Under the pieces are notes generated by a model, which ran no database searches, was not told where the DNA came from, and saw only the letters and a program-made list of their open reading frames with translations. The translations under genes were made by a program, and so were the position numbers. From Corallococcus sp. NCRR (GTDB lineage: Bacteria > Myxococcota > Myxococcia > Myxococcales > Myxococcaceae), in NCBI RefSeq assembly GCF_026965535.1, contig NZ_CP114039.1:372001-436000 (forward strand): DNA of 64,000 bases, in the 5' to 3' direction. This document shows, one piece after another, positions 39,738-44,310 of the stretch; position 1 is the first letter of the stretch; every line of letters begins with the position of its first letter.

Positions 39738-39840
39738 TTGAAGGCAGACATCGGGTGTGGCGCGGCGAGGACCGGGAGGGCGTGGGCGACTCCCGGCTTG
39801 CCGCCTCAGGGGGCGGATGTTACGAGACGGGCATCCCCCT

Positions 39841-39859
39841 GATTTCGCAAATCATTCTC
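39841..39859 (+). promoter_or_regulatory. Candidate Fur box upstream of the TonB receptor gene
   Basis: The 19 bases here match the classical Fur box at about 13 of 19 positions by hand alignment. The site ends three bases before the ATG, so bound Fur-Fe2+ would also block ribosome access. The stretch GCAAATCATT and the following TCAACATG are repeated upstream of the PepSY operon (44994-45012, minus strand). Confidence 0.5.
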
Positions 39860-39862
39860 AAC

Positions 39863-42052
39863 ATGCCCACTTCGTTCCGCAGCCGTCCGCGCCTCGTCCC
39901 GGGGGCGCTGCTTGGCGCCTCCCTCTCCCTTTTCGCCTCCCCTGCCCTGGCGCAGGAGCCCGTCGCGCCCCAGGAGGCGCCGGCCCCGGAGTCTCCGGCG
40001 CCCATGGACGACGGCGTCTACGACCTGCCCACGGTGGTGGTGGAGAGCGAGCGCGCCAACGGCCCGGTGCAGGGCTACACCGCGCGCCGCAGCGGCAGCG
40101 GCACGAAGACGGACACGGCGATTGGCGACACGCCGCAGTCGGTGTCGGTGGTGGGCAGGGCGCAGATGGACGCGCAGCAGGTGCAGTCCGTGACGGAGGC
40201 CACGCGCTACACGCCGGGCGTGCGCTCGGACACGTTTGGCGCGGATCCTCGCAATGACTGGTTCCTGATTCGCGGCTTCACGTCCCAGGAGGGTGGCTAC
40301 TTCCTGGACGGGCTCCAGCTGTACTCCAGCAGCTTCGCCACCTGGCGCCTGGAGACCTTCGGCCTGGAGCGTGTGGAGACCGTGCGCGGTCCCTCCTCCG
40401 TGCTGTACGGAGGCACGTCTCCGGGCGGCCTGCTCAACATGGTGGGCAAGCGTCCGCCAGTGGAGGGGCACATCCGGCACGTGGAGCTGGGCGGAAACAC
40501 GTTCGCCAACGGCCACGCGGGCGTGGACCTGGGCGGCGCCATCGACTCGGGCAACCACTGGCGCTACCGGGTGACGGCGCTGGCGCGCGGCGGCGGGACG
40601 CAGGTGGAGGAGACGGACAATAACCGGCTCTTCATCGCGCCGGCCCTCACCTGGGCGCCGACGGAGAGCACGGCGCTGACGGTGCACGGCAGCTTCCTGG
40701 CGGACCGCACGCAGGGGCAGAACTTCCTGCCGTACGTGGGCACCGTGGTGGACGCGCCCTATGGCCGCATCCCCACGGACCTCTTCACCAGCGACAAGAG
40801 CCTGGACCACTTCCAGCGCAACCAGTCCTGGGCGGGCTACGAGTTCTCCCACCGCTTCAACAACACCTTCACGCTGCGGCAGAACCTGCGCTACGCGCAC
40901 CTGGACCTGGACTTCCAGACGCTCTACGGCGTGGGCTACGCGGGTGAGCCGGCGGACGCGCAGCTGTCGCGCGGCAACTTCGTCACCCGGCCGACCGCGA
41001 ACCTCTTCACGGTGGACACGCAGGGAGACGTGCGCTTCAGCACCGGCCCCGTGCGCCACCTGGTGCTCGCGGGCGTGGACTTCAAGAACTACGTGCTGAA
41101 CGACGAGCAGGGCTACGAGGCGGGCGCCCCGCTGGACCTGCTCGACCCCGTGCGCGGTGACTACACGCCCACGGAGTCGCGCTACACGCTGAACCAGTCC
41201 ACGCTGAACCAGCTGGGCGTCTACCTCCAGGACCAGCTGCGCATCGGCGACCGGCTGGGCCTGACGCTGAGCGGGCGTCATGACTGGGTGGGCATGGACG
41301 TGGACAACGAGCTCCTGCCCACGTCCAGCTACGACGGCAGCGAGAGCGCGTTCAGTGGCCGCGCGGGTCTGCTCTACCGCTTCGACGTCGGCGTCGCGCC
41401 GTACGTGAGCTTCTCCAAGTCGTTCAACCCGGTGGCAGGGACGAAGTCGGACGGCTCGCTGTTCGAGCCGGAGAAGGGCCAGCAGCTGGAAGCAGGCGTG
41501 AAGTACCAGCCGGATGCGTTCCCGGTGCTGGTGGGCCTGTCGGTGTTCGAATTGAAGCGCCAGAACTTCGTGACGACGGACGGAGCGTTCAACCAGCTGC
41601 AGATTGGCGAGGTCCGCTCGCGAGGCTTCGAGGTGGAGGCCAACGCCACGCTGTTGCGAGGGCTGAGCCTGATTGGCTCCGCGTCGCTGTACTCGTTGGA
41701 GATCACGGAAGGCGCGGACCTGGAGCTGGGCAAGCGTCCGGTGGGTGTGCCGGAGGTGCTGGCGTCGCTGTGGCTGGACTACACGTTCCAGGACGGAGCC
41801 CTGCGAGGCTTCGGAGCGGCGGCGGGGGTGCGCGGAGTGGGCAGCTCCTACGCGGACCGGGAGAACACGCTGGAAGTGCCAGGCTTCACGCTGGTGGACG
41901 CGAGCGTGCACTACGAGCGAGGCCCGTGGCGCGCGGCCATCAACGCCTCCAACCTAGCGGACAAGACCTACGTGTCCTCCTGCAGTTCCGCGTCGGCCTG
42001 CTTCTACGGAGAGCGCCGCCGCGCGTCCGCCACGGTCGGCTACACCTGGTAG
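39863..42052 (+). CDS. TonB-dependent siderophore receptor
   Basis: A 729-residue outer-membrane receptor. The signal peptide (GASLSLFASPALAQ) is followed by a short TonB-box-like region DLPTVVVESE. The plug domain has DTPQSVSVVGRAQM, FLIRGFTSQEGGYFLDGLQ and VRGPSSVLYGGTSPGGLLNMVGKRP, characteristic of ferric-siderophore receptors of the FpvA/FhuE/FoxA class. The 22-strand barrel ends in the aromatic C-terminal strand (RASATVGYTW). The ATG at 39863 directly follows a Fur-box-like site. It is convergent with the PepSY operon, which is probably its inner-membrane partner. The siderophore is unknown. Confidence 0.95.
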   Translation: MPTSFRSRPRLVPGALLGASLSLFASPALAQEPVAPQEAPAPESPAPMDDGVYDLPTVVVESERANGPVQGYTARRSGSGTKTDTAIGDTPQSVSVVGRAQMDAQQVQSVTEATRYTPGVRSDTFGADPRNDWFLIRGFTSQEGGYFLDGLQLYSSSFATWRLETFGLERVETVRGPSSVLYGGTSPGGLLNMVGKRPPVEGHIRHVELGGNTFANGHAGVDLGGAIDSGNHWRYRVTALARGGGTQVEETDNNRLFIAPALTWAPTESTALTVHGSFLADRTQGQNFLPYVGTVVDAPYGRIPTDLFTSDKSLDHFQRNQSWAGYEFSHRFNNTFTLRQNLRYAHLDLDFQTLYGVGYAGEPADAQLSRGNFVTRPTANLFTVDTQGDVRFSTGPVRHLVLAGVDFKNYVLNDEQGYEAGAPLDLLDPVRGDYTPTESRYTLNQSTLNQLGVYLQDQLRIGDRLGLTLSGRHDWVGMDVDNELLPTSSYDGSESAFSGRAGLLYRFDVGVAPYVSFSKSFNPVAGTKSDGSLFEPEKGQQLEAGVKYQPDAFPVLVGLSVFELKRQNFVTTDGAFNQLQIGEVRSRGFEVEANATLLRGLSLIGSASLYSLEITEGADLELGKRPVGVPEVLASLWLDYTFQDGALRGFGAAAGVRGVGSSYADRENTLEVPGFTLVDASVHYERGPWRAAINASNLADKTYVSSCSSASACFYGERRRASATVGYTW

Positions 42053-42075: not shown

Positions 42076-42114
42076 GGGGCCCTTGCCTGGCACGTCACCG
42101 CCAGCAAGGGCCCC
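42076..42114 (+). terminator. Stem-loop after the TonB receptor gene
   Basis: GGGGCCCTTGCCTGGC (42076-42091) pairs with GCCAGCAAGGGCCCC (42100-42114) with one bulged base and an eight-base loop, 23 bases after the stop codon. There is no T-run. Confidence 0.55.
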
Positions 42115-42188
42115 CGTCGTTCCCGACGCAGGAAGCACTACGGTCACGCATTGACGGGACTGCTCCTCCGTCAGCGGCGCACTGAAAA

Positions 42189-42612
42189 AACCTGTCCGAC
42201 AGTCGGACAGTTTTGGAAGTCCCTCCGGGCAGCACGAACCTGTCCGACTGTCCGACTGTCCGACAAGTCTTGAAGTCCGTGGCCCGGGGGCTCCGGTTCC
42301 GCCCGGGCAGCACGAACCTGTCCGACAGTCCGACCGGTTTGGAACTCGGTGGCGCACGGGCTTCGCTCCGCCCGGGCAGCACGACCCCGTCCGACTGTCC
42401 GACAAGTTTTGAAGTCCGTGGTGTGGGGGCCGCTCCATGCTCCGAGCAGCACGAACCTGTCCGACTGTCCGACCGGTTCGGAGCTGCGTGGCCCGGAGCC
42501 CTTCCGCCCGGGCAGTGAGAACCTGTCCGACTGTCGGACAAGTTTTGAAGTCCGAGCCAGCGAGGGCCGCCCCCACCAGCAGCGGGAAACCTGTCCGACT
42601 GTCGGACAGGTT
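42189..42612. repeat. Seven-unit array of a palindromic GTCCGAC repeat in a convergent-gene gap
   Basis: Cores of about 25 bases start at 42189, 42237, 42315, 42384, 42454, 42520 and 42588, giving a period near 68 bases (range 48-78). Units 1, 6 and 7 are near-perfect inverted repeats with arms AACCTGTCCGAC and GTCGGACAGGTT (unit 7), followed by TTTT. Units 2-5 instead carry two or three direct TGTCCGAC blocks. The spacers are related to one another (TTTTGAAGTCCGTGGCCC near the start, CGCCCGGGCAGCACG near the end), so this is not CRISPR. The array fills most of the 701-base gap (42053-42753) between the convergent TonB receptor and PepSY genes; no gene is seen in the gap. The rest of the gap (42613-42753) holds nothing I can name. 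Confidence 0.9.
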
Positions 42613-42753
42613 TTGGAAGAGCGCGTCCAGGGGCCGCCTCGGATGCGAGGTGGACCGCATAGGTGCTTGGGGGCTTGGCGCGCATCGTGCACTTCGGACT
42701 GCACTGCCGCGCGCTGCTGGGAAGTCCCGCTGGGCTTCGCGGACTCTCGGGCC

Positions 42754-44310
42754 TCACGCCTTGACGAGGGGTCCTTCGGGCGCGGCGCTCCCGGACACGG
42801 GCACCGCTGTCTTCCGCTTGCGCAGGCCCCACGCGAGCCCGCCGCAGCCCAGCGCCATCGCGGCAAGGAAGGACTCCGCCATGAACACCGGGGGCAGACC
42901 GCGTGACAGCGCCGTGAACAGGTTCGCGTCCTGCGTCAGGACGTCGCCCACCACCACCGCTCCGAACAGCACCGCCGCCACGGCGCACAGCACACTGCCC
43001 ACCTGGCGCGTCGAACCGCGCGGCACGAGCGCGATGACGACTCCGAGCACCCATGCTCCCAGGAACAGACCGAACTCCCAGTCCGCTCGCCGTGCCATGG
43101 CCCATGGCAGCACCCGGTTCGCGGCGCAGTACACCGCCGTGCCGAACGTGAGCCCCGCGGACACGCCCACCGTCAGCCGCTCCAGCACGCGGTTGCCCCT
43201 GCGCGTGCGAAGTGGATCCCGGCGCTCCAGCCAGATGAGGTTTCCCGTCACGAGCACCGCGCACATCGCCAGCGCGAGCAGCGCGTAGAGCGGCTTCATC
43301 AGCGCCTCCGCGAACCGGCCCGCGTGCAAGTCGAAGAGCAGCCGCTCGAAGGTGAAGTTCGGCGTGCTGGACTCCACGCTCGACCCGAACGTCTCACCGC
43401 TCACGCTGTCCACGTGCGCGAAGTGGTCCGGTCCCAGCGGGGACAGCTGGAAGTACACGCCCGCCCAGGCGCGCGCGTCTCCGTAGTCGTGCAACTCCAC
43501 GTAGCGGGGCGTGCCCTCCGCGCCGGGCACCGACGCTCGCGCCCGGTCCACCACCGTGTCCAGCGACAGCATGGGCGCGTCCTTCCCCGCCGCCTCCCGC
43601 ACTGGCACGCTGTAGCCGCGCAGCTTCGTCACCCGGTCCGCCTGCCCCCGGTACACCGTGCTCCCGAAGCCCTGCGCCGCCAGCCCCGCCAGACACAGCA
43701 CCGCCCCCGTCCATGCCAGCATCGCGGTGAACGGCAGCCCGAAGACGCCCAACACCTTGTGCGCGTCCGACGCGGAGAAGCGCGGTTTCGCCGTGGGCCG
43801 GAAGCGCCACCACTGCACGCGCAGGTCCTTCAGGTGGATCCACAGGCCGCTGACCAGCGCCACCAGCAGGGCCACCGACACCACCCCCGAGAACTCCATC
43901 CCCCAGGGCACCCGGTAGAAGAAGTGCATCCAGTACAGCTCGCTCGCCAGCCGGCTGCGCTCCGGCAACGCGGTGCCGGTGAGCGGGTCCAGCCACAACA
44001 CGCGCATCCCCGTGGGCTCGAAGAGGTACGCGGTGATGAACCGCGTCTCCTCGTGGGTGAGCATCCCCACATGCGCGCCTCGCGGCAGCGGCCCCTGCTC
44101 CCGCACCCGTTCGAGCATCAGATCGAACGACGGCGGTGACTCCGAGGGTGGCGCGACGTGGAGCGCGGGCTCCTGCCACACTTCCAGCTCCTCGCGGAAC
44201 ATCGCGAAGACGCCACAGAAGAAGATGACGAACAGGAACAGGCTGGCGATGACGCCCGCCCACGCATGCAGGTCGAACTGGATGCGGAACGTCCGGGGCG
44301 ACAGCTTCAT
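42754..44310 (-). CDS. PepSY-domain membrane protein (siderophore iron reductase type)
   Basis: A 518-residue protein of the PepSY-associated TM family. Its start SPRTFRIQFDLHAWAGVIASLFLFVIFFCGVFAMF contains the typical His and first membrane helix. VLGVFGLPFTAMLAWTGAVL, YWMHFFYRVPWGMEFSGVV and FDLHAGRFAEALMKPLYALL continue the pattern, with paired membrane helices flanking periplasmic PepSY regions. Relatives beside TonB receptors are thought to reduce or release iron from siderophores. The start ATG 44310 overlaps the preceding DUF3649-like stop by four bases (ATGA), showing an operon. A Fur-box-like site lies upstream of the first gene of the operon. Confidence 0.9.
   Translation of the reverse strand: MKLSPRTFRIQFDLHAWAGVIASLFLFVIFFCGVFAMFREELEVWQEPALHVAPPSESPPSFDLMLERVREQGPLPRGAHVGMLTHEETRFITAYLFEPTGMRVLWLDPLTGTALPERSRLASELYWMHFFYRVPWGMEFSGVVSVALLVALVSGLWIHLKDLRVQWWRFRPTAKPRFSASDAHKVLGVFGLPFTAMLAWTGAVLCLAGLAAQGFGSTVYRGQADRVTKLRGYSVPVREAAGKDAPMLSLDTVVDRARASVPGAEGTPRYVELHDYGDARAWAGVYFQLSPLGPDHFAHVDSVSGETFGSSVESSTPNFTFERLLFDLHAGRFAEALMKPLYALLALAMCAVLVTGNLIWLERRDPLRTRRGNRVLERLTVGVSAGLTFGTAVYCAANRVLPWAMARRADWEFGLFLGAWVLGVVIALVPRGSTRQVGSVLCAVAAVLFGAVVVGDVLTQDANLFTALSRGLPPVFMAESFLAAMALGCGGLAWGLRKRKTAVPVSGSAAPEGPLVKA

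Follow-up and report, generated by a model that had tools for sequence, protein, structure and literature searches.

What does an array of seven closely similar palindromes do in the gap between two convergent genes? The question is raised by positions 42187-42613 of the window, the 64,000-nucleotide stretch analysed here, which corresponds to 372001-436000 of the 9.79 Mb single-contig genome of Corallococcus sp. NCRR. Direct inspection of the window sequence located all seven cores that the preliminary description had claimed for this array, with starts at 42189, 42237, 42315, 42384, 42454, 42520 and 42588. The relevant features are given below, the polarity of a core being read from the strand that carries its A-centred form; the leading strand of replication is here the minus strand.

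39755..42052, plus strand: TonB-dependent receptor, convergent neighbour of the array; start uncertain.
42076..42114, plus strand: separate strong hairpin (predicted) outside the array, about 23 nt past the receptor stop codon, with no T-run behind it.
42187..42613, plus strand: whole array; flanks, which give the unit orientation, are plus at all 8 exact sites, and core polarity is mixed (+--+----).
42189..42213, plus strand: unit 1 core, a near-perfect palindrome at the array end; A-centre on the plus strand, opposing the leading strand.
42237..42269, minus strand: unit 2 core, extended by a third copy of an 8-bp repeat (TGTCCGAC three times on the plus strand); two overlapping A-centred sites on the minus strand, which is leading.
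42315..42339, plus strand: unit 3 core, of the rare CAC class (GTCCGACAGTCCGAC on the plus strand); opposes the leading strand.
42384..42408, minus strand: unit 4 core, GAG class; leading polarity.
42454..42478, minus strand: unit 5 core, GAG class; leading polarity.
42520..42544, minus strand: unit 6 core, a CAG-class palindrome; leading polarity.
42588..42612, minus strand: unit 7 core, a perfect palindrome with the inverted-repeat stem AAACCTGTCCGAC/GTCGGACAGGTTT; leading polarity.
42754..44310, minus strand: PepSY_TM protein, convergent neighbour of the array.

The neighbours are indeed convergent, as had been described, but the array does not fill the space between them, covering about 430 of the 701 bp. 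Core-to-core spacings are 48, 78, 69, 70, 66 and 68, so that only the last four agree with a period near 68. The spacers are alike (TRF period 70, score 314), which bears out the earlier view that this is not a CRISPR, where spacers are unique. The layout of A-rich stretch, palindrome and TTTT ascribed to units 1, 6 and 7 is present in units 1 and 7, whereas unit 6 has the TTTT on one side and merely two A's on the other. In units 2-5 the stem is imperfect, with a C.C mismatch. Rfam returned nothing at gathering score in the window, and a protein-coding reading was rejected after two long minus-strand ORFs overlapping the array were tested and gave no Pfam match.

The array belongs to a large family. 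The pattern GTCSGACNGTCSGAC occurs at 149 sites in the NCRR genome and the same pattern reversed at none, indicating that the repeat is not a product of chance. Of these, 142 are A-centred cores distributed over 52 loci, either arrays or single copies; the other seven have a C or G at the centre or lie outside the regions sampled. The core, GTC(C/G)GAC-A-GTCGGAC, is a near-palindrome with a slight asymmetry, flanked by CCT/AGG and A/T tracts, and in the A-centred orientation the consensus of the 142 sites is AAAACCT-GTC(C 61%/G 39%)GAC-A-GTC(G 98%)GAC-AGGTTTT. By class there are 84 CAG, 55 GAG and 3 CAC cores, and with 139 of 142 falling in the first two classes the motif is intrinsically polar and has a definite direction. 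The GAG class is a direct repeat of GTCGGACA. As DNA hairpins, CAG cores with either A or T at the centre are predicted to fold at -13.6 kcal/mol, GAG cores at -9.9 and their complement at -8.2. Decayed units of one array mostly retain the centre A, which would be expected under simple copying as well as under selection. Between neighbouring exact cores of a locus the commonest distance is 67-72 bp (97 of 248 in the NCRR genome and a second complete genome of the genus, G059, together), followed by about twice that. The family is one of mostly intergenic, REP-like palindromic repeats growing into tandem arrays of approximately 70-bp units.

A pattern search with GTCSGACAGTCGGAC recovered the repeat in 26 of 145 genomes of the order: in 16/16 Corallococcus genomes (7-235 sites each), in 5/6 genomes of one sister genus (1-19 sites) and in five elsewhere. 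The array is therefore not unique to one genome, a point that the preliminary description had proposed to check. Within the genus, five genomes (G062 and G064-G067) have 7 to 10 copies each and the others 19 to 235, several of these assemblies being fragmented drafts; the counts suggest an expansion of the family in some members of the genus. With the flanks included, 75 of the 80 named contig stretches among the matches listed are from Corallococcus. Judged by titles and abstract openings, the open-access literature yielded no description of this repeat or of a replication-polar REP family, and a search with four 11-mers returned nothing myxobacterial by title.

With gene positions taken from our own unvalidated gene caller, 47 of the 52 NCRR loci are intergenic: 14 in convergent, 27 in co-directional and 6 in divergent gaps. 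As a baseline, the same regions contain 482 gaps of 60 bp or more, array-bearing ones included: 48 convergent, 281 co-directional and 153 divergent. Scoring of flanking-gene orientation, likewise proposed earlier, thus reveals a non-random placement. Convergent gaps are enriched both here (14/47 intergenic loci against 48/482 gaps, p=3.6e-4) and, among the matches listed, in G059 (17/56 against 31/252, p=1.8e-3), and divergent gaps are depleted (p=0.007 and, for the listed G059 matches, p=9e-4), array-bearing gaps again counting towards the baselines. Five NCRR loci were called in-gene, one of which merely touches a stop codon. Three of the five lie in frame within giant NRPS-like ORFs (C1:6373340, 6890459, with 5 units of 57 bp, and 6928400), ahead of the A3 motif: they read VGQSDRF and stand just before NLAYVIYTSGSTG, which we take to be that motif. 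At two of these three loci the unit number is unlike that of the G059 orthologue. At C1:4604093 four in-frame units in a 2269-aa ORF yield repeated NLSDSRTGL peptides, and the orthologous place in G059 has two exact cores. The copies in the NRPS-like ORFs are similar in spirit to the Rickettsia palindromic elements found in ORFs.

The central observation is that the direction of the core is in phase with replication. Origins were placed with what we take to be the parS pattern, of which sixteen sites mark a region at 2.00 Mb in the NCRR genome; in G059 parS lies at 10.053 of 10.081 Mb. GC skew changes sign at the NCRR origin, being positive in 24/29 right-arm and 6/32 left-arm regions sampled, with the window counted together with two regions overlapping it. 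The A-centred core strand is mostly minus to the left of this origin and plus to its right. Since polarity passes to units by duplication, loci rather than units count as independent, and for these counts degenerate units were excluded and ties kept apart. In the NCRR genome the A strand is leading at 39 loci, lagging at 10 and tied at 3 (39/49 untied, p=3.8e-5; 117/142 sites leading). In G059, for which at least 72 loci were recovered and some single copies may be missing, the corresponding figures among the matches listed are 52, 14 and 6 (52/66 untied, p=2.8e-6; 187/230 sites leading). A rotation scan placed the best flip point at 2.04-2.13 Mb in the NCRR genome and at 0.02-0.03 Mb in G059, in each case no more than about 130 kb from parS. 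The G059 peak had stood at 7.63 Mb while 8.4-10.05 Mb was sampled only at parS, and moved beside parS once that arm was added. The score of parS itself is slightly below that of the best flip (29 against 31 and 38 against 42, respectively), and 2.7% of rotations in the NCRR genome and 3.1% in G059 reach it.

This polarity grows with array size in both genomes. Every locus of at least 5 units is leading (12/12 in the NCRR genome and 16/16 among the G059 matches listed), and single copies are not significantly polar (16/23 and, among the listed matches, 16/25). It is also strongest near the origin: within 2.5 Mb of it 28/31 NCRR loci and 35/40 of the listed G059 loci are leading, and at 2.5 Mb or more 11/18 and, among the matches listed, 17/26, neither significant. 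Locus counts by megabase from the origin are 15, 11, 12, 7 and 7. Loci in convergent gaps are leading at 12/12 in the NCRR genome and at 15/16 among the listed G059 matches. Four of the five in-gene NCRR loci disagree and one is leading, and at 10,055,957, nearer to parS than any other G059 locus, the polarity is opposite. GAG and CAG cores are equally polar in the NCRR genome (46/55 and 70/84 leading); in a 193-site set of the listed G059 matches GAG is leading at 63/65 and CAG at 90/123. A third genome, G069, displays a weaker trend, with 5/7 loci of at least 5 units leading and 7/9 untied ones leading among 10 loci sampled; a hand reading of its site lists for two sub-patterns gives 23/31 untied loci. 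In the sister genus, where all exact cores are single, a hand count with origins from parS and rounded genome lengths revealed no clear polarity (9/19, 7/12 and 9/13, or 25/44).

Two ordinary causes were considered and set aside. Gene direction does not account for the polarity: the leading strand carries 556 of 1000 called genes (a total in which about 30 window genes appear twice), and the core does not track the gene strand. In co-directional gaps the two strands agree at just 15/26 NCRR loci and at 25/38 of the listed G059 loci, and beside lagging-strand genes in such gaps the core tracks replication at 9/11 and, among the matches listed, 10/15 loci. General GC/AT skew is only about 0.02, and the leading strand is slightly T-rich, so that the AT part has the wrong sign.

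Further, the polarity resides in the core alone. With unit orientation derived by EM on the flanks, ignoring the core, units are random with respect to replication (23 leading and 28 lagging in the NCRR genome; 38 and 29 among the listed G059 matches). The flanks of an array mostly run in one direction, being mixed in 6/29 multi-unit NCRR loci and 12/47 of those listed for G059. Among arrays with mixed cores, 6/9 in the NCRR genome and 16/20 of the listed G059 ones nevertheless have uniform flanks; mixed cores within uniform flanks, as in the window array, indicate that the core flips inside units that stay put. Core polarity is hence independent both of the direction of the genes and of how the surrounding unit is oriented. 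That unit orientation is random while the core is polar strongly argues against insertion bias as the cause.

In G059 the same gene pair encloses, at 8387835, a counterpart of the window array with seven exact cores, and 41 of the 62 G059 loci first examined match sampled NCRR regions, most of them at or beside an array and often with different unit numbers (8 against 7, 10 against 3, 11 against 5, 1 against 8 and 7 against 1). Even the centre base can differ between single orthologous copies (G059 4482174 and NCRR 6440918). Two of the 32 G059 loci with both flanks collinear are empty in the NCRR genome, in a comparison covering mainly NCRR regions chosen for holding sites plus nine others. 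For 27 of the 72 G059 loci among the matches listed, the NCRR genome has no orthologous locus with an exact core, indicating that gain and loss are common. Of these 27, again among the listed matches, 18/23 untied loci and 8/8 with at least 3 units are leading; shared ancestry alone is therefore insufficient to explain the polarity. At G059 C1:2080088-2080926 there is an array of nine exact cores, and the collinear NCRR site is without them.

As the best explanation of these observations we tentatively favour, at somewhat less than even chances, a polar protein-binding site that is met from one side by a machine travelling from ori to ter. A candidate sequence-specific DNA-binding protein would occupy the units, and the machine would be the replisome in the first place, or else SMC or another translocase. 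Given a bound protein and ori-to-ter travel, the machine would meet every array from the same side, and the opposite core orientation would be counter-selected, more strongly as an array grows. The cell might use this direction as a signpost, or might merely tolerate it, the arrays then being polar roadblocks kept in their permissive orientation. The dependence on array size fits purifying selection against a wrong-way obstacle or a signal that is more effective when arrays are large; it fits orientation-dependent amplification too. A bolder form, which we regard as doubtful, casts the arrays as protein-bound one-way signposts whose core polarity would guide an origin-leaving machine, an SMC loop extruder or the replisome, in passing gene boundaries or pausing at them, in a logic like that of polar eukaryotic loop boundaries; selection would then phase the core alone and leave the rest of the repeat free.

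The main rival, unlikely on balance though to be taken seriously, is a functionless footprint of replication: hairpins forming on the lagging-strand template would bias array growth, loss or template switching in favour of cores that face the fork in one way, so that large arrays become polar with no one reading the direction. It would account for the climb of polarity with array size and for the variable unit numbers at orthologous sites noted above. It also gains from the strong DNA hairpins predicted for the cores and from the position of wrong-way units, which in lead-majority arrays of at least 3 units are commoner at the ends (13/92) than inside (10/164; p=0.04). Mechanisms of this kind have precedents, as template switching inverts the spacers of inverted repeats in yeast (PMC8604942) and quasipalindrome mutation has a strand bias in E. 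coli (PMC7202029), as far as the accessible text of these two reports goes. However, CAG sites have the same predicted hairpin energy whether A or T is at the centre and are polar all the same (70 leading, 14 lagging). Spacer inversion itself would appear to be symmetric, so that the bias would have to come from elsewhere, and the pairing of A with GG, almost never with CC, is left unexplained.

That the cores are bidirectional intrinsic terminators or mRNA 3'-end elements, the idea advanced in the preliminary description, appears improbable as their main role. The enrichment in convergent gaps and depletion in divergent ones speak for it, as do the many cores that start 20-60 nt past a stop codon and the perfect units, which as RNA are predicted to fold at -18.7 kcal/mol between A/U edges. 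Where an array lies at least 60 nt downstream, moreover, predicted structure in the 60 nt past the stop is slightly weaker than in genes without an array (median -22.4, n=73, against -23.5, n=437; p=0.05), as if the array could substitute. Yet a simple terminator scan of the window array passed one of the seven units, 1 hit against 0.7 expected, and the layout of stem and U-tract is good only in units 1 and 7, the stems of units 2-5 being mismatched. The receptor gene has a hairpin of its own at 42076-42114, whose surrounding 73 nt are predicted to fold at about -36.6 kcal/mol and which is a better terminator candidate for this gene than the array. Across the NCRR genome the GAG units with mismatched stems make up 55 of 142 and share fully in the polarity, and termination does not predict a core that tracks replication even beside lagging-strand genes (9/11 loci). 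Termination, at best secondary, may hold for some units, and a polar protein-binding site could coexist with a role at gene 3' ends.

We give little credence to a mobile REPIN/MITE family whose HUH-type transposase inserts with a bias into the lagging-strand template. HUH transposases do target that template in the accessible text of PMC6006769, the copies are many and dispersed, and the G059 loci without an orthologous exact core (27 of 72 among the matches listed), two of them at clearly empty collinear sites, could be read as insertions. Insertion bias, however, would lead one to expect the reverse of a random unit with a polar core. A RAYT (Y1_Tnp) gene was found in 0/16 genomes of the genus by a search that was positive in 5/14 control genomes. 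The GTAG/CGTC tag beside the stem is not above shuffled flanks, with 2/142 and 8/142 in the NCRR genome (3 and 12 when shuffled) and, among the matches listed, 1 and 14 of 230 in G059 (4 and 13). The earlier suggestion of an undescribed REP/BIME-like family is supported: no description of the repeat was found, and it resembles such families in being palindromic, mostly intergenic, enriched in convergent gaps and variable in unit number between species, but it is without their tetranucleotide tag and RAYT transposase.

Finally, that the core is an FtsK-orienting KOPS or AIMS octamer is scarcely credible: the polarity does run along the leading strand from ori to ter, but outside the arrays GTCGGACA is unskewed (63:78 in 1.8 Mb sampled from the NCRR genome and G059) and, unlike in AIMS, density and polarity drop towards ter. 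In the same 1.8 Mb the most leading-skewed of 14048 octamer pairs is GGGCAGGG (238:85), which we take to be a KOPS-type sequence; its skew suggests that Corallococcus may use a KOPS-type signal like that of E. coli.

REP-like repeats have so far mostly been interpreted as 3'-end, supercoiling or transposon elements. Here an asymmetric heart is phased with replication and the rest of the repeat is not, by which the history of insertion can be separated, inside a single element, from selection or turnover that came later, and the function of such repeats becomes directly testable. If the polarity is selected, as the favoured polar protein-binding site would have it, it points, in a large social bacterium, to a new protein that binds DNA in a polar manner and to a code that organises the chromosome; if it is mutational, the arrays are a natural record of strand-specific palindrome processing. 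Instead of serving as simple terminators of genes, the arrays of this predatory soil bacterium may mark direction or be a footprint left by replication.

Among known systems, the Tus-Ter replication barriers come close in logic, as a polar site with its permissive side towards the oncoming fork would yield the observed pattern; Ter sites, however, are single and located around ter, and the present arrays occur all along the arms. Polar loop boundaries of the CTCF type in eukaryotes would share, purely by analogy, a motif polarity set against a travelling loop extruder. REP and tagged REP families (Di Nocera et al. 2013, PMC3733652) and BIMEs (PMC2817692) are, in the accessible text of these accounts, high-copy palindromes of 20-40 bp situated mostly downstream of or between co-directional and convergent genes, some of them in genes. 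The Corallococcus repeat is likewise a short, high-copy, intergenic palindrome (142 sites, 47/52 loci intergenic). It differs from REPs and BIMEs as there described in being without the GTAG/CGTC tag and without a RAYT found in the genus, in its direct tandem units and in its replication-aligned polar core. In BIMEs the REPs are regularly spaced in alternating orientation, whereas here the units are direct, with flanks mixed in only the 6/29 NCRR loci and 12/47 listed G059 loci mentioned above. BoxC, the intrastrand triplex motif of E. coli, is also a repeated intergenic palindrome, but the accessible text of its report (PMC4666352) describes it as free of strand-orientation bias, with 13 plus and 10 minus copies in counts that do not give replication arms. 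With KOPS and AIMS (PMC5993296, PMC2680272), the repeat shares short polar sequences on the leading strand running from ori to ter. As far as the accessible text of these two sources goes, those are octamers dispersed genome-wide, AIMS growing denser and more biased towards ter (PMC5993296) and being strongest near it, whereas the Corallococcus elements are palindrome-centred arrays, mostly intergenic and most polar near ori.
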